The notes below the pieces were generated by a model. It did no database searches, was not told where the DNA came from, and worked only from the letters and a program-made list of their open reading frames with translations. A DNA stretch of 64,000 nucleotides from Candidatus Sumerlaeota bacterium (lineage in GTDB: Bacteria; Sumerlaeota; Sumerlaeia; JAFGJS01), in NCBI GenBank assembly GCA_016928995.1, contig JAFGJS010000054.1:1-64000 (forward strand), given 5' to 3'. The position numbers and the translations under genes are program-made. This document shows positions 1 to 7,436 of the stretch, piece after piece; the stretch's first letter is position 1, and each line of letters starts with the position of its first letter.

Positions 1-441
1 CTCTCCTTTTCGTTCCTCTGAATTTTCGAACGAAAACCGGAGAAAAATCCACCTTAATGGCTGTCCAGTTTTTGGGGACAATTATACTCAGCGTAGCGGT
101 ACTCGTACTCGTTCTCGTCCTCGTTCTCGAATAAAGTAGTCCACCGTTTCAAAACGGCAAAAAAATGATAGCTCGTGAAAATCTTACGACTCAGAGTCCA
201 TCTCCGAACTCGCTTATCATCCATTCGAGAAAAACCCCGCCCTCAAATTATATGATTGTTATTATAAATATTACTTGCGCCCATAGTGCGATTAGTGTAT
301 TTTCACTGGGTTTTGTTATAAAAATGACCGCATATCCTTCCCGTCGCGCACAACACCGACCCATGAAAAACCAAGCGCGGCATCCGGATGTTGTCTGTTT
401 TTTATCTTGAGTTCAATCACCACGCCAGGAGCCATATCATC
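1..441. other. Intergenic region with hairpin and hexamer array
   Basis: No credible gene. An inverted repeat (7-15 with 28-36, flanked by CTCC/GGAG) could be the end of a gene lying to the left of the window. At 86-132 there is a tandem run of TNCTCG hexamers that matches elements near 39.8 and 45.2 kb. The remainder is AT-rich (about 230-310) and probably holds the promoter of the next gene, but I cannot pick a convincing -35/-10 pair. Confidence 0.5.
86..132 (+). repeat. Dispersed hexamer repeat, partial copy 1
   Basis: ACTCAGCGTAGCGG is followed by five degenerate TNCTCG hexamers and CGAAT. The same string order occurs, reverse-complemented, inside 45183-45294 and, forward, inside 39777-39880. 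This copy lacks the terminal TGCTTTGTTGAAAA motif of the other copies, so it looks like an internal fragment. Confidence 0.6.
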
Positions 442-3036
442 ATGAAAACATCTCACTGGATCGCCTCCACCCTCATCCTCCTCCTGACAACCGCTGCCCA
501 CGCGGCCGAAGTAACGTTTTCATCGCCGATGGAAATAACAACATCCGCTTCAAGCGCTCGTTCGGTGTTCGCTATCGATCTGGATGGCGACGGTGATCCA
601 GACATATTATCGGCGTCCTATGACGATGATAAAATCGCATGGTATGAAAACCGATTGAATCAGGCGGAGCAGGATTTTGGTTCGCAACAAGTGATCACAA
701 CTTCGACGATCGGCGCTCGTTCGGTTTGGGCCGCTGACCTGGATGGTGACGGCGACGTGGATGTGCTCTCGGCATCATCAGGTGATAATAAGATCGCGTG
801 GTATGAAAATCGCCTAAATCAAGCTGAGCATGACTTTGGAACGCGTCAAATCATCGCAAGTGGAATGAACTTCACCTTAGTTCATGCCGTGGATGTGGAC
901 GGCGATGGCGACGCCGACATTATCGCCAACAGGAATGCATGGTGCGAAAACCGGCTCAATCAAACTGAACATGCCTTTGGCACCTTAAAAAAACCGTCAA
1001 GTAATGCAGTAGATTTTGCCGATCTAGATTGTGACGGTGATATTGATTTTCTTGGATTCAGTGTCGCGGATACTACTGACTGGATTCGTACCTGCTTTTA
1101 TGGTTTCTGTTATTGGACAAGTTACAGAGATATATACCTCCGTCGAATTTTTAATTCGGGAAGTAGTTTCCATACAGATAATACAGGTCCTTATATTTAC
1201 CGTCAATCGACAACATTCTCAGGCCCCGCAGCAGTCCCTCCAACGGAGGATCCTTCTAAGTATTTTTCTAATCCCAGAATCTTTGCCACTGATTTGAATG
1301 GTGATAGTTATATTGATGTTGCAGCATTCGATGATGGTTTTTATTGGATTGAAGATGGAGAAAGTGTGCGATTTTTTTCAAATCTAACTTATCCTTCTGA
1401 CTTCGTGGATTTAAATAATAACGGCAACAAAGATATCCTGACTTTGACAGGATGGCATGAGAATCGATTGAATCAACCGGAAAATGACTTCGGTGAACAA
1501 CAGACAATAATCCCAGGCAGTTACACTCGATCCGTTTATCCTGTGGATCTGGATGGTGACAAGGACCTGGACATTGTTTATGCGCAAAGCAATGGAGTGT
1601 ACGTTATCTTCAATCAATTAGATCCATTTGAAACCGTGATTGGCGAAGGCTCGACATCGTGGTATTTTGCGGATGGGGATAATCAGGGAGGAGCGCAGAC
1701 TTATATTTTAGTCAATAACACCAACACCGAGGCGACGACGCTCACACTGAAGGCGCTGTTCTATCAGCAAGAGCCGGTGACGATCAACGCGACGGCCGAG
1801 GCGCTGTCGCGCTGCACGATCGCGATGCACGAATGGTTGCCGGGGATTGGCATCAACACAACGAGTTTTGGCTGCGAGCTGATTTCGAACCTGCCGGTGT
1901 TCGCGGAGCGGGTGATGTATACGCCGGAGATCGCGCTGCGCGATGGGATCGCGACGACCACCTTCCGCACTCGCGCGACGGCGGCCATCGGCGCGCGCGA
2001 GCCGCGCACGGAGTGGTTCCTCGCCGAAGGCGCGACCGGCGCAGGCGCTGGCGGCCAACTGCGCGAAACGTATATCTACATCGCGAATCCGAACGAGACC
2101 GACGCCATGATCGAGTTGGAGTTCCTGCGCGAGGACGCGGCGCCGCTCACGCTGCCTTACGCGGTGGAAGCGCAGCGCCGCAGGGCGATCGACTGCGCCG
2201 TAATCGTCGGGCTGGAGCAGGCGAATTTTTCCACGCGCGTGCGCTCGACGAACGGCGTGGGCATCGTAGTTGACCGCACGATGGTCGGCGCGGCGGACGG
2301 TCTGCCGCGGCAATGGGCGCATGCGGCGCTGGCGGCTGATCGCGCCACGACAGGCTGGTGGTTCGGCGATGGCTCGCTGACCGACGGCTGCGAGACATTC
2401 CTCACGCTGGCGAATCCGTCGAGCGCGACGGCCACAGTAAACCTGCGCTTTCTGCGCGAAAGCGAAGAGCCGTTCGCGGCGCAGGTTGCGGTGGCGCCGC
2501 TCGCGCGCGAAACCGTGATCCTGAGCACGTACGCCGAGCTGCTCGGGCGGCGCTTTTCCATCGAGGCGCTCGTCGCGGACGGCGGACCGGGAATCGTGGC
2601 GGAGCGACCGATGTACTGGCGCGCGGAAGGCTACACGCACCGCTCGGGCGCGTCCGATACGATCGGCGCGACGCACACGGCCGCGACGTGGTTCCTGCCG
2701 GAAGGCGCGGTGTTCGGCCAGTCGGATTTCGAGTGCGAGTTCGCCGTGGGGAATCCAAGCACGAGCGACACCTTGGTCGAAGTCGCGTTCATGCTGTCCA
2801 ACGGCGAGGTCTTGCTGGTCGAGCGCGAGCTGGCGGCCGGCCGCCGCATCACAATCTCGGCGAACGACCATCTCGCGAACACAGGCGGCACGATTTCGTT
2901 CTCCACGCTGATCCGCACGACAAACGGCGTAGGCATCGTAGCCGACCGCTCGATGTACGCGCGGAGCCTGCCCAGCGAAGGCGGCATCGCCCGCTTCAGC
3001 GGCCACGCCAGCCAGGCGATTTCGCTCGAGGAGTGA
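442..3036 (+). CDS. Secreted VCBS/FG-GAP repeat protein with C-terminal beta-domain repeats
   Basis: An 864-residue exported protein. The start at 442 is chosen over an in-frame start at 388 because AGGAG lies at 426-430 and a signal peptide begins here (hydrophobic core, then AHA before AEV). The first ~400 residues contain FG-GAP/VCBS-type repeats with DLDGDGD calcium-binding loops and a recurring IAWYENRLNQ string, as in integrin-like propellers. The C-terminal half holds three to four related units of about 120 residues. These carry WFLAEGA-type openings, ANPN or ANPS and FLRE in the middle, and end in NGVGIVVDR or a variant; they recall DUF5719-type repeats. The 5' half is AT-richer than the 3' half, which suggests a fusion of parts with different histories. 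It is probably a surface or secreted binding protein; substrate unknown. Confidence 0.85.
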   Translation: MKTSHWIASTLILLLTTAAHAAEVTFSSPMEITTSASSARSVFAIDLDGDGDPDILSASYDDDKIAWYENRLNQAEQDFGSQQVITTSTIGARSVWAADLDGDGDVDVLSASSGDNKIAWYENRLNQAEHDFGTRQIIASGMNFTLVHAVDVDGDGDADIIANRNAWCENRLNQTEHAFGTLKKPSSNAVDFADLDCDGDIDFLGFSVADTTDWIRTCFYGFCYWTSYRDIYLRRIFNSGSSFHTDNTGPYIYRQSTTFSGPAAVPPTEDPSKYFSNPRIFATDLNGDSYIDVAAFDDGFYWIEDGESVRFFSNLTYPSDFVDLNNNGNKDILTLTGWHENRLNQPENDFGEQQTIIPGSYTRSVYPVDLDGDKDLDIVYAQSNGVYVIFNQLDPFETVIGEGSTSWYFADGDNQGGAQTYILVNNTNTEATTLTLKALFYQQEPVTINATAEALSRCTIAMHEWLPGIGINTTSFGCELISNLPVFAERVMYTPEIALRDGIATTTFRTRATAAIGAREPRTEWFLAEGATGAGAGGQLRETYIYIANPNETDAMIELEFLREDAAPLTLPYAVEAQRRRAIDCAVIVGLEQANFSTRVRSTNGVGIVVDRTMVGAADGLPRQWAHAALAADRATTGWWFGDGSLTDGCETFLTLANPSSATATVNLRFLRESEEPFAAQVAVAPLARETVILSTYAELLGRRFSIEALVADGGPGIVAERPMYWRAEGYTHRSGASDTIGATHTAATWFLPEGAVFGQSDFECEFAVGNPSTSDTLVEVAFMLSNGEVLLVERELAAGRRITISANDHLANTGGTISFSTLIRTTNGVGIVADRSMYARSLPSEGGIARFSGHASQAISLEE

Positions 3037-3120
3037 ATCCGCCGTCAGCATGGCTCTTAGGAACGAAACAGTGATGAACGCATTTATTCGCGAAGCGAAT
3101 CAAACGGGACAGGCGAAACA

Positions 3121-3392
3121 TCAGTAGCGTTTAAAGATTTTATCTCTCTTAAATTCAACCTTATCAGCGCCAAAGGCGCTTGACATACCAGTCCAGGGCA
3201 AAGCCCTGGGTCTGGATCGACCAACATGTTTAAACCCTGTAGGGGCGCGATATTGAGGGGTATCCAATGCCAATGATGTTCCGCCCCTACAGGGCTTGTC
3301 ATTTTTATTGCCTCTACCTAGGGCGTTGCCCCAGGCTGGTATGTCTGGCGCTTTCAGCGCCCTACAAAACGAAAACCTTTAAACGCTACTGA
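3121..3392. repeat. Nested ~270-bp imperfect palindrome
   Basis: The outermost arms are 16-bp perfect inverted repeats (3121-3136 and 3377-3392). Inside are imperfect arms around 3165-3210 and 3315-3360, both including a GACATACCAG core. At the centre is a 13-bp perfect pair (3235-3247 and 3282-3294, CCCTGTAGGGGCG). It lies between two genes on the same strand and could form a long cruciform or RNA stem. It resembles dispersed palindromic units in other bacterial genomes; function unknown. Confidence 0.75.
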
Positions 3393-3581
3393 CAAAACAC
3401 CTATCCCGTTTTTGAGTCTTACCACACCCCCCACAGATCCATCACAACGCCTGAAATGCCCAGTCAAGAAATGCCACGCCATGAACATTTTATGCCCAAC
3501 CTGATCGCCCAATGATTTCTCAAAAACCAACCTCATTCTGCAAATACCTGAAATTACACCGCTTACAAAACGCACCGCGTC

Positions 3582-3668: not shown

Positions 3669-5684
3669 ATGAATAAGCACATCGCACGACTCACTATCAT
3701 GGCGGTCATCGTTTCCGCCGCATCCTTCGGACATGCAGCCGGAATCCTGACGCCGCTCGGATCGGGACAAGCGCCGATCCAAATCCAGGATCATCATGTC
3801 AACGTGGTGATCAACAACGGTTTCGCGCAGACCGAAGTGACGCAAACCTTTACCAATCCCAATGCGGAACGCATTGAAGCGATTTACTCCTTTCCGCTGC
3901 CCAAAAGCGCCAGCTTGTCCGAAGTGACATTGACGATCGGCGAACGCGAAATTCATGGCGAGGTGATCGAACGCAAGGAAGCGGAACGCATTTATGAGGA
4001 AGAGAAAAACCAGGGCAATGACGCCGGGCTGGCCAATAAAAACGAATACAAAACATTCGAGTTCCGGGTTTCCGGGATCGAGCCCAATTCCGAAGCGCGT
4101 ATTCGTTTCGTCTACTACCAGCCGATTGAAATCGACTCGGGCGTGGGACGTTTTGTCTATCCGCTGGCCGACGGCGGAACCGACGAACTGGCCGAATCCT
4201 TCTGGAGCGTGAACGAAAAAGTGGAAGGCGCCTTTTCCATCGAAGTCGAATTGAAAACAGCCTGGCCGGTGACATCCGTCCGGACGCCGGGCTATGAGAA
4301 TGAAACCAGCATCAATCAGATCGCCGACGGCCATTACCAGGCGCGCTTCGAGCAGACGCAGGGCGCCTTGACGCGCGACTTCGTGTTTTACTACATGCTG
4401 CGCGACGATCTTCCCGGCCGGGTGGAAATGCTGACCTACAAGGCGGACGCCGAGAAGCCCGGCACGTTCATGATGATCCTGACGCCCGGGCTAGATCTGG
4501 AGCCGCTGACCGAAGGAACGGATTACGTCTTCACGCTCGATGTGTCCGGCAGTATGGATCAAAAAATTCACATGCTGACTGAAGGTGTCAAACGAGCCAT
4601 CGGACAGCTCAATCCCAATGACCGTTTTTGCGTTGTAGTGTTCAACGACAACGCAAAAATGCTGACGCGCGGCTGGACGGCCGCGACGCCGGACAACGTG
4701 GCAAAGACATTCCAAGTCCTTGACGGATTGCGTGCGAATGGCGGCACCAACCTGTTTGACGGTCTTATGCTCGGATTGAAGCAACTGGACGCGGATCGCG
4801 CTACGAACTTCATCCTGGTCACGGACGCCGTGACGAACCAGGGCGAGCTGTCGCCGAAGAAATTCCACGAACTGATGAAAACCTACGATGTGCGGTTCTT
4901 CGGTTTTCTGATCGGCAACAACGCCAACTGGCCGCTGATGCGCGTGATCTGCGAAGGCAGCGACGGCTTCGCTCGCGAGGTCTCCACGTCGGACGACATC
5001 ATCGGGCAGATCGCGCTGGCGAAAAGCAAAGTCGGACGCGAATGCCTGCATGACGCGGAACTGAAAATCAGCGGCGTGAAAACCTTCAACACCACCGACC
5101 AAATGATCGGCCGGGTGCATTTTGGGCAGCAATTGATTATCTTCGGCCAGTATGCGGATGGCGGCGAGGCCGCGCTGACGCTGAAAACACGGCAGACCGG
5201 CGAAGATAAGACATACAAAACCAGCGTGCAATTCCCCGATGTCGCTGTGGATCATCCCGAACTCGAACGCCTGTGGGCGCTGAGTCAGATTGAACAAATC
5301 GAACTGCAGGAGAACATCGGCCTGACGGAACCCGCCGAATCCCGCAGCGCCATCGTTGACCTGGGGCTGAACTACCAGTTGGTGACGGATCACACGTCCA
5401 TGCTGGTGCTGTCGGATGATAAGTTCGAGAACTACGGCGTCAAGCGCCTGAACAAGGAGCGCACGGCTCTGGAACACGAGGCGCAAGCCCGTCGCAAACA
5501 AAACGCCGCGTCCAATTATCGTGTGGACAACCAGTCGCCGATGTTCCAACGCCAAGCCAACCACATGCGGCACACCGGCGGCGGCTCCGGCGCCGGGGCT
5601 TTCGATCCAATCACCGCCATGATCGTGGCATTGTTGACCGGAGCGGGCGTAACCGGCGCCCGCAGCCGCAAACAACAAGGATAA
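3669..5684 (+). CDS. VIT and vWA domain protein with GlyGly-type C-terminal sorting tail
   Basis: 671 residues. A signal peptide (about 1-23, GHA then AG) is followed by a VIT (inter-alpha-trypsin) domain at about 30-170 and a vWA domain at about 285-460 with an intact MIDAS (D291-V-S-G-S, then NGGTN and VTDAVTNQG). Residues 636-644 are TGGGSGAGA, followed by a hydrophobic segment (645-663) and a basic end ARSRKQQG. That tripartite tail is the layout of GlyGly-CTERM signals cut by rhombosortases, and a rhombosortase-like gene follows at 5789. AAAGGAG (3655-3661) precedes the ATG. Proteobacterial VIT/vWA proteins with an LPXTG tail next to a dedicated sortase are a known parallel. Probably an exported, surface-anchored metal-dependent adhesion or assembly protein. 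Confidence 0.88.
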   Translation: MNKHIARLTIMAVIVSAASFGHAAGILTPLGSGQAPIQIQDHHVNVVINNGFAQTEVTQTFTNPNAERIEAIYSFPLPKSASLSEVTLTIGEREIHGEVIERKEAERIYEEEKNQGNDAGLANKNEYKTFEFRVSGIEPNSEARIRFVYYQPIEIDSGVGRFVYPLADGGTDELAESFWSVNEKVEGAFSIEVELKTAWPVTSVRTPGYENETSINQIADGHYQARFEQTQGALTRDFVFYYMLRDDLPGRVEMLTYKADAEKPGTFMMILTPGLDLEPLTEGTDYVFTLDVSGSMDQKIHMLTEGVKRAIGQLNPNDRFCVVVFNDNAKMLTRGWTAATPDNVAKTFQVLDGLRANGGTNLFDGLMLGLKQLDADRATNFILVTDAVTNQGELSPKKFHELMKTYDVRFFGFLIGNNANWPLMRVICEGSDGFAREVSTSDDIIGQIALAKSKVGRECLHDAELKISGVKTFNTTDQMIGRVHFGQQLIIFGQYADGGEAALTLKTRQTGEDKTYKTSVQFPDVAVDHPELERLWALSQIEQIELQENIGLTEPAESRSAIVDLGLNYQLVTDHTSMLVLSDDKFENYGVKRLNKERTALEHEAQARRKQNAASNYRVDNQSPMFQRQANHMRHTGGGSGAGAFDPITAMIVALLTGAGVTGARSRKQQG

Positions 5685-5708
5685 AAGCAAATTGTGGCTC
5701 AATCAAGC

Positions 5709-5743
5709 GCGGCGGCATAGTCCGAAACAAACTATGCCGCCGC
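5709..5743 (+). promoter_or_regulatory. 13-bp perfect stem-loop between the vWA and rhombosortase genes
   Basis: Arms 5709-5721 and 5731-5743 are perfectly complementary with a 9-nt loop. No T-run follows, so it is not a standard intrinsic terminator. It may protect the upstream mRNA end or tune expression of the downstream protease. Confidence 0.55.
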
Positions 5744-5788
5744 CAATCAACAGAAACGACAAAAACAACAAGGCACGGAGAAGATAAA

Positions 5789-6439
5789 ATGGAACTCGCG
5801 AATCAAATCATGCTCCATCACAGGGAAGACGCATCATGCAAACGGATCGAGCACTGCCTCTCCTACGCTCTGACCGCCTTCGCCGCCTTGGCCGCAGCAA
5901 TGATCTACATAATTCCCGCATGGACGTCATTGGCGCATTTCGACCGCGCATTGATTCACGCTGGCGAGTTCTGGAGATTATTCACCGGTCACTTTGCCCA
6001 TCTGAGTTTCGAGCATCTGTTTTGGGATCTATTAGCGTTTATCGTTTTGGGCGCATTCTGCGAACATAAAAGCCGGACCTTATTCGTCGTCTGTGTTGCG
6101 CTTTCCATGATCACGATCAGCATGCATGTGTTGCTGTTTGAACCCGGCATCGCGCGCTATTACGGCTTGTCCGGCGTCGATTCGGCGTTGTTTGTCATGT
6201 TGTGCGTGATCCTGATCAAAGAAAGCGCGCACCAACAAGGCGACGCATCGGGAATCATCGCCTGGCTCGCGCTGCTTTGTTTCATCGGAAAAGTTACTTA
6301 TGAATACTTCACGGGAGGCGCTACGCTCTTCGTTGACATAAGCGCAATTGGCCGCGGCGTTCCTTCAGCACACCTGATCGGCGGACTGATTGGCGCGGCA
6401 ACCGGCATGCAATTTGGTATAAAGCGCTGCTGGAATTGA
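5789..6439 (+). CDS. Rhombosortase-like rhomboid serine protease
   Basis: 216 residues, polytopic membrane protein. Rhomboid features are visible: FWRLFTGHFAHLSFEHLFWD (the WR-x(n)-H-x-x-H region), the catalytic serine in YYGLSG (Ser128) and the catalytic histidine in SAHLIGG (His195). Short, six-helix rhomboids of this kind with the active site between helices 4 and 6 are typical of the rhombosortase family, which processes GlyGly-CTERM proteins at the inner membrane. CGGAGAAG stands about 8 nt before the ATG. The neighbouring vWA protein with a Gly-rich tail is the obvious substrate, and the pair is probably co-transcribed. A general rhomboid protease is the alternative. Confidence 0.8.
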   Translation: MELANQIMLHHREDASCKRIEHCLSYALTAFAALAAAMIYIIPAWTSLAHFDRALIHAGEFWRLFTGHFAHLSFEHLFWDLLAFIVLGAFCEHKSRTLFVVCVALSMITISMHVLLFEPGIARYYGLSGVDSALFVMLCVILIKESAHQQGDASGIIAWLALLCFIGKVTYEYFTGGATLFVDISAIGRGVPSAHLIGGLIGAATGMQFGIKRCWN

Positions 6440-7297: not shown

Positions 7298-7356
7298 CGT
7301 AATCTCGACCTCATGAAGAAAATGAAACCGGCGCCCCAAAAAGAACGCCCCACCCT

Positions 7357-7391
7357 CTCTTGCTCTTGCTCTTGCTCTTGCTCTTGCTCTT
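7357..7391. repeat. Hexanucleotide tandem repeat (CTCTTG)5.8
   Basis: Five full CTCTTG units plus CTCTT, without interruption, 60-95 nt upstream of the dat start. On the dat transcript it would read as CAAGAG repeats. Perfect short tandem repeats of this type can change copy number. Confidence 0.85.
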
Positions 7392-7436
7392 AAAAACAAG
7401 AATCCTACTACCCGTCCACCCTATTTCAAAATCAAA

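Follow-up and report, generated by a model that had tools for sequence, protein, structure and literature searches.

Two adjacent genes in a 64,000-nucleotide stretch of DNA from Candidatus Sumerlaeota bacterium (contig JAFGJS010000054.1, positions 1 to 64,000; hereafter "the window") very probably form a dedicated sorting cassette, in which a protein with VIT and vWA domains is exported, cut at a Gly motif by a rhombosortase encoded beside it and, probably, anchored to lipid. The case rests on the families to which both genes belong, their order, their common inheritance, the intact catalytic and metal-site residues, and the paired change of enzyme and substrate tail. An earlier model-generated reading of the same DNA, made from sequence without database searches (the first-pass annotation), had proposed the pairing, and an open reading frame (ORF) check bore out its positions and spacing: two plus-strand ORFs, 3669..5684 and 5789..6439, are separated by 104 nt. 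The main features, all on the plus strand, are as follows.

3669..5684, plus strand: VIT/vWA protein, proposed rhombosortase substrate, 671 aa (Pfam domains, AlphaFold2 model)
3669..3740, plus strand: probable N-terminal signal peptide, residues 1-24, ending GHAA before G (sequence by eye and alignment)
3783..4115, plus strand: VIT domain, residues 39-149 (PF08487, 111.1 bits)
4527..4973, plus strand: vWA domain, residues 287-435, with metal-site motif DVSGSM (PF13768, 48.3 bits)
5577..5681, plus strand: putative C-terminal sorting signal, residues 637-671, comprising GGGSGAGA, a hydrophobic helix from about 647 and basic RSRK (sequence; alignment)
5595..5600, plus strand: predicted cleavage, Gly643/Ala644 (from alignment to the SGG/S site of VesB; PMC11389362)
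5789..6439, plus strand: rhombosortase-family intramembrane serine protease, 216 aa (TIGR03902, 116.7 bits against a cut-off of 84)
6170..6172, plus strand: catalytic Ser128 (GLSGVDS), invariant in 37/37 enzymes; the residue four positions on (Ser+4) is Ser132, not His
6371..6373, plus strand: catalytic His195 (AHLIGGLIG), invariant in 37/37 enzymes

The proposed substrate tail and the protease

Pfam placed VIT and VWA domains in the 671-aa protein above gathering cut-offs. Its AlphaFold2 model (mean pLDDT 77.3), which has a helix at residues 2-18 in the N-terminal region and a tail helix at residues 647-658, matched inter-alpha-inhibitor heavy chain 1 (ITIH1; 6fpy) over 589 columns with E 1.9e-37 and TM 0.58-0.64. 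The protein ends in GGGSGAGAFDPITAMIVALLTGAGVTGARSRKQQG, which fits the Gly-rich motif, helix and basic end described in the first-pass annotation. This is the layout of a GlyGly-CTERM tail: a Gly motif without Cys, a hydrophobic helix and a basic end, placed at the C-terminus. Among 159 window ORFs (stop-to-stop, at least 120 aa, six frames) the combination of Gly motif, hydrophobic stretch and basic C-terminal end occurs once, and G643 is invariant in 9/9 aligned orthologues.

Judged by homology, the tail would count as GlyGly-CTERM under the curation rule of 2011, not by model alone. That rule admits a weak tail when extended homology leads on into a trusted GlyGly-CTERM tail (PMC3237569). 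The orthologue from Vibrio profundi aligns with the window protein along its length at 38% identity and ends in SGSGGGSLGWGVLLLLPLVRWVRNRN, which scores 16.0 bits against the GlyGly-CTERM model TIGR03501, 0.5 over the cut-off of 15.5; membership follows because homology runs through the tail into this trusted one.

The 216-aa protein matched Pfam Rhomboid (PF01694, 33.6 bits, over the gathering cut-off) and passed TIGR03902, the curated NCBIfam model for rhombosortases. The GxSG and His reported in the first-pass annotation are GLSG with Ser128 and AH with His195. As the family motifs set out in PMC3237569 would have it, the Ser lies in the fourth transmembrane helix and the His in the sixth, AHxxGxxxG is present as AHLIGGLIG, and WRxxS/T in loop 1 reads WRLFT. 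The best PDB matches to the AlphaFold2 model of the enzyme (mean pLDDT 81.3) were GlpG structures.

Co-inheritance of the pair and likely dedication of the enzyme

Forty orthologues of the vWA protein, chosen by vWA and not by enzyme, were read. When named genomes were scanned, the single window protein gave no matches; a two-sequence alignment returned nine loci, in record G008, three Pelagicoccus, Verrucomicrobiae bacterium DG1235, three Omnitrophota and Vibrio profundi. Profile searches at E<=1e-120 found the protein in 5/384 genomes of the phylum to which an Omnitrophota record belongs (two of them new) and in 29/387 of that to which a Pelagicoccus record belongs (28 of them new). The metal-site motif DxSGSM is kept in 39 of the 40 orthologues; the remaining one is a contig fragment that lacks this region.

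For 37/40 orthologues, spread over at least three phyla, the next gene downstream on that strand encodes a rhombosortase; this conservation of gene order places the pairing above chance. The three exceptions are L080 and the Vibrio locus L084 (one rhombosortase elsewhere in the genome), and L134, which sits at a contig edge. Gaps between the two genes run from -17 to 887 nt under a first-ATG rule, that of L143 being inflated by a frameshift. All 37 neighbouring enzymes match TIGR03902 at E<=1e-5, in a search that gives no cut-off member by member, and 6/6 of those scored singly pass the model's cut-off, as the window enzyme does. Across 40 genomes of the window's phylum, enzyme relatives at E<=1e-5 are confined to the window genome and G008, whose vWA protein is 56-57% identical to that of the window and has the tail GHGGGVLDPLTVAF...RRRRNRREDR.

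Exactly one rhombosortase over the cut-off was present in each of the 10 genomes reached that hold a vWA orthologue. In a sample of 386 genomes there were six with such an enzyme, two of them the window genome and G008; with these two set aside, the comparison is 10/10 against 4/384 (Fisher p 4.5e-17, for genomes that are not independent and represent about four lineages). As a control, 44/143 genomes of Gammaproteobacteria had a rhombosortase over the cut-off, and 0/30 gammaproteobacterial rhombosortase loci had a VIT/vWA gene within 1.5 kb. Distances between partners correlate (Mantel r 0.779, 0/5000 permutations) over 35/37 pairs, the fragment L116 and the frameshifted L143 being left out; common organismal descent contributes to this correlation.

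Rhomboids occur in most bacteria, and weak TIGR03902 matches were seen in 11/14 control genomes at E<=1e-8, so that an ordinary membrane-anchored vWA protein might simply have come to lie beside a housekeeping GlpG-type rhomboid. The conserved gene order contradicts this explanation, and GlpG models gave the window enzyme 23.6 bits against a cut-off of 250. Among 61 relatives, moreover, a rhombosortase over the cut-off was found in the window genome and G008 alone, both with the pair, and none of the 28 other VIT/vWA matches read in the phylum has one at a distance of 1.5 kb or less (in 23 no Gly-helix-basic tail is visible by eye, 3 are cut off by the contig end and 2 carry a sortase-type tail). 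We regard chance adjacency as extremely improbable. The pair is a co-inherited cassette.

Whether the enzyme serves this substrate alone is a separate matter. Rhombosortases usually act on many targets each, and the target adjoins the protease in most single-target genomes (PMC3237569). An enzyme with many substrates could owe its place beside the vWA gene to history, with the vWA protein as no special target. TIGR03501, run over the window genome (92.5% complete), gave no C-terminal tail above the cut-off; the best match, on contig C135 (15.1 bits against 15.5), lies inside a multi-helix protein and was dismissed as chance. A profile of the family tail gave one clear match per genome in 7/7 genomes, always the vWA protein, the next best having E 0.0156. 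Applied to ORFs around 35 rhombosortase loci (L075-L078, L088, L095 and L146-L174, of which L075 and L147 are the same place), the profile recognised no foreign tail; because it misses such tails, its negative in the window genome is weak. The many unrelated GlyGly targets that the first-pass annotation had named as evidence contrary to its proposal were therefore not seen with either model, the profile being weak on foreign tails. With gene order kept in 37/40 as well, an enzyme of many substrates seems quite unlikely to us, and single-target status is likely.

Paired change and proposed processing

A His four residues past the catalytic Ser is found in "virtually all rhombosortases" (PMC3237569) and characterises the family outside the formal TIGR03902 cut-off. 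Taken from the aligned column, the Ser+4 residue in the 37 enzymes linked to a VIT/vWA gene is Ser in 13, Cys in 7, His in 6, Asn in 5, Thr in 3, Met in 2 and Ile in 1. His occupies this position in 28/30 gammaproteobacterial loci and is replaced in 31/37 VIT-linked enzymes. The tails divide in the same way: non-His enzymes are paired with a GGA-type tail in 31/31 cases, reading G-G/A-G-A/V plus a hydrophobic residue, and His enzymes with a GPVG tail in 5/5 readable cases (of six pairs). In a quick tree of 79 enzyme rows, from which L147 was dropped as a repeat of L075, one branch, with a support of 84 in the Shimodaira-Hasegawa-like approximate likelihood ratio test (SH-aLRT), set off the 37 VIT-linked enzymes together with L078 and L095 (which belongs to the L080 genome). 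The other 32 enzymes lie on another branch (SH-aLRT 83). Both support values are moderate, and several of the terminal branches are long. The six enzymes with His group together in a single clade.

Two further enzymes in the set stand apart. L077 (G184:C43, 1228-1995) is a rhombosortase over the cut-off with Glu at Ser+4 (SGVIE) and a very long branch. L078 (G195:C77, 3-1388, minus strand) is an SGVIC rhombosortase beside a lipoprotein-like protein with a Gly-containing helix tail, apparently another variant enzyme-target pair.

Several observations weigh against the cassette or narrow what it can mean. TIGR03501 gave no match to the window locus, whether the whole protein, the tail alone or the locus within the genome was searched. 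The window enzyme has Ser132 in place of the hallmark His, and we file it as a variant rhombosortase because it passes the family cut-off without that residue. The joint change of tail and enzyme counts as one event and not many, since the six His enzymes descend from a single split. The residue after the cut (P1') presents a further difficulty: VesB is cut after Gly383 in SGGS, and Ala at P1' left it almost without activity (PMC11389362), whereas Ala is nearly invariant at this position in the window vWA family. We infer from this difference that window-type enzymes would have to differ from the VesB enzyme in cut site or specificity. As for type II secretion, the best GspE match scored 619.9 bits against a cut-off of 630.25; GspE/PilB-like ATPases were found in 12/12 genomes searched, with Vibrio profundi alone over the GspE cut-off. 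The pairing put forward in the first-pass annotation is supported, but neither partner is a textbook one: of the two model searches it had proposed, that for rhombosortase was positive, so that the absence of any such score, also named there as contrary evidence, did not materialise, and that for GlyGly-CTERM was negative.

By analogy with VesB, the window enzyme would cleave the GlyGly-type tail of its neighbour in the following manner. The vWA protein would leave the cytoplasm through Sec, and its C-terminal helix would hold it in the inner membrane with the Gly motif outside. The rhombosortase would then cut at that motif, most likely between Gly643 and Ala644, and the new C-terminus would probably be passed to an amine-bearing lipid headgroup; in Vibrio cholerae, rhombosortase cleaves VesB and attaches a glycerophosphoethanolamine moiety (PMC6219818). 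The product would be lipid-anchored on the envelope, perhaps after crossing the outer membrane, with its metal-dependent vWA domain free to bind partners.

Alternatively, the enzyme might cut the anchor only to shed a soluble vWA protein, with no lipid conjugation. GlpG cleavage of VesB yields soluble protein (PMC11389362), water may serve to resolve the rhombosortase intermediate (PMC6219818), and the substitution at Ser+4, close to the active site, could alter the acceptor. Set against this are the modified C-terminal Gly on VesB cut by rhombosortase (PMC6219818) and the match of window-type enzymes to the same family model, TIGR03902. We consider shedding unlikely, and prefer cleavage followed by lipid anchoring.

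In 4/40 orthologues, the three Pelagicoccus proteins and that of Verrucomicrobiae DG1235 (L080, L081, L082 and L085), the signal is internal: beyond the Gly motif, helix and basic cluster the chain continues with another hydrophobic stretch and some 100-120 further residues. The extension is conserved at 44-63% identity among the four, with SSIDxSIAxFW and NLFNA-type motifs and a DFVWG end; Pfam found no domain in it, and the other loci examined yielded no copy. From their sequences, the extended proteins are likely precursors of two products. DG1235 was listed in 2011 with a rhombosortase but no GlyGly-CTERM protein (PMC3237569), and its only rhombosortase over the cut-off adjoins this vWA gene; an internal signal would explain the listing.

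A broader account, which we offer tentatively and would not yet favour, is that a separate, vertically inherited branch of rhombosortases co-evolved with one substrate family. Ser+4 and cut residues would have shifted in concert (His alongside GPVG; Ser, Cys, Thr, Asn, Met or Ile alongside GGGA) to give a new specificity, the internal cut in Pelagicoccaceae would yield two surface products, and C-terminal cutting with conjugation might be ancient among VIT/vWA proteins or have been acquired by them repeatedly.

If the cassette operates as proposed, it provides a natural one-enzyme-one-substrate rhomboid system outside Proteobacteria, and the paired changes in active site and cut make it a good place to learn rhomboid specificity. 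It would also supply the likely missing target of the 2011 orphan in DG1235, suggest that a rhombosortase is able to act on an internal signal, and sharpen the question of why VIT/vWA proteins keep gaining C-terminal conjugation (by rhombosortase, sortase or exosortase, and in animal heavy-chain transfer).

One further feature lies between the two genes.

5709..5743, plus strand: intergenic stem-loop, 13 bp, GC-rich, without a U-run after it (z -4.23)

It was not among the listed plus-strand terminators. Strong hairpins also occur in several other vWA/enzyme spacers, with no obvious common sequence. The gene upstream of the pair (window 388-3036) encodes an FG-GAP repeat protein that carries DUF5719, is probably secreted and has no sorting tail. 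On the minus strand, at about 7320-7399, an ORF reading MFLRARARARARAREGG points to a brief simple-sequence repeat immediately before what is probably the true start of an aminotransferase-like gene (function judged by eye).

Comparison with known systems

The general idea of the pairing is not new, having been proposed in 2011. In the open literature, subscription papers and database notes aside, only PMC3237569 was found to join VIT/vWA proteins to rhombosortase, and we found no mention there, supplements aside, of a Ser/Cys variant, a GGGA tail, an internal signal or an Omnitrophota cassette. The elements that we did not find in print are the non-His enzyme, the GGGA tail, the joint change of enzyme and tail, and the internal signal.

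In animals, the likeness is to ITIH1 (PDB 6FPY), which shares the whole-body fold of the bacterial protein. ITIH heavy chains lose a C-terminal pro-domain when the new C-terminus, the end of an unstructured peptide, bonds to chondroitin sulfate (PMC7170535; PMC4661386), and the metal site of the heavy-chain vWA domain drives self-association. Unlike the bacterial pair, the animal chains use an ester to chondroitin sulfate or hyaluronan, and their transfer as described in PMC7170535 and PMC4661386 involves no rhomboid. The parallel, drawn partly from a model, would be one of fold and habit only; we claim neither a common mechanism nor a common origin of the tail.

A close bacterial relative is the GlyGly-CTERM/rhombosortase system (TIGR03501/TIGR03902), which has the same tripartite tail, an enzyme passing the same model and a target beside its protease, and which already included VIT/vWA proteins (PMC3237569, Fig. 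3C legend). The window pair differs in a tail that scores below the model and reads GGGA, not SGGS, and its family differs in the replacement of His at Ser+4 in 31/37 enzymes by Ser, Cys, Thr, Asn, Met or Ile and in the internal signal of 4/40 orthologues. VesB/RssP of Vibrio cholerae (PMC6219818; PMC11389362) resembles it in enzyme family, predicted topology and predicted cut at a Gly motif; VesB, however, is a serine protease, its enzyme serves several targets, and P1' is Ser where the window family has Ala.

The VIT/vWA family was described by Haft and Varghese in 2011 as bearing GlyGly-CTERM, PEP-CTERM or LPXTG tails (PMC3237569). The convergent use of dedicated proteases suggested in the first-pass annotation agrees with this variety of tails on one family, and is to that extent an idea already in print. 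The marine proteobacterial system of VIT/vWA protein, LPXTG tail and class GN sortase (TIGR03788/TIGR03784) likewise has a homologous body and a one-to-one gene pair, with an unrelated enzyme class and recognition motif; the window protein scores 217.4 bits against TIGR03788, below the cut-off of 551.65. The contrast of enzyme classes drawn in the first-pass annotation holds closer to home as well. In two genomes of the window's phylum (L067, G017:C58, and L066, G018:C8; about 759-3435, minus strand) a sortase-family gene directly follows that of a VIT/vWA protein whose tail is of the TAT(S/N) type. These vWA proteins score 441 and 492 bits against TIGR03788, below its cut-off, and the downstream genes pass the general sortase model TIGR01076; rhombosortase and sortase partners of VIT/vWA proteins thus exist side by side within one phylum.

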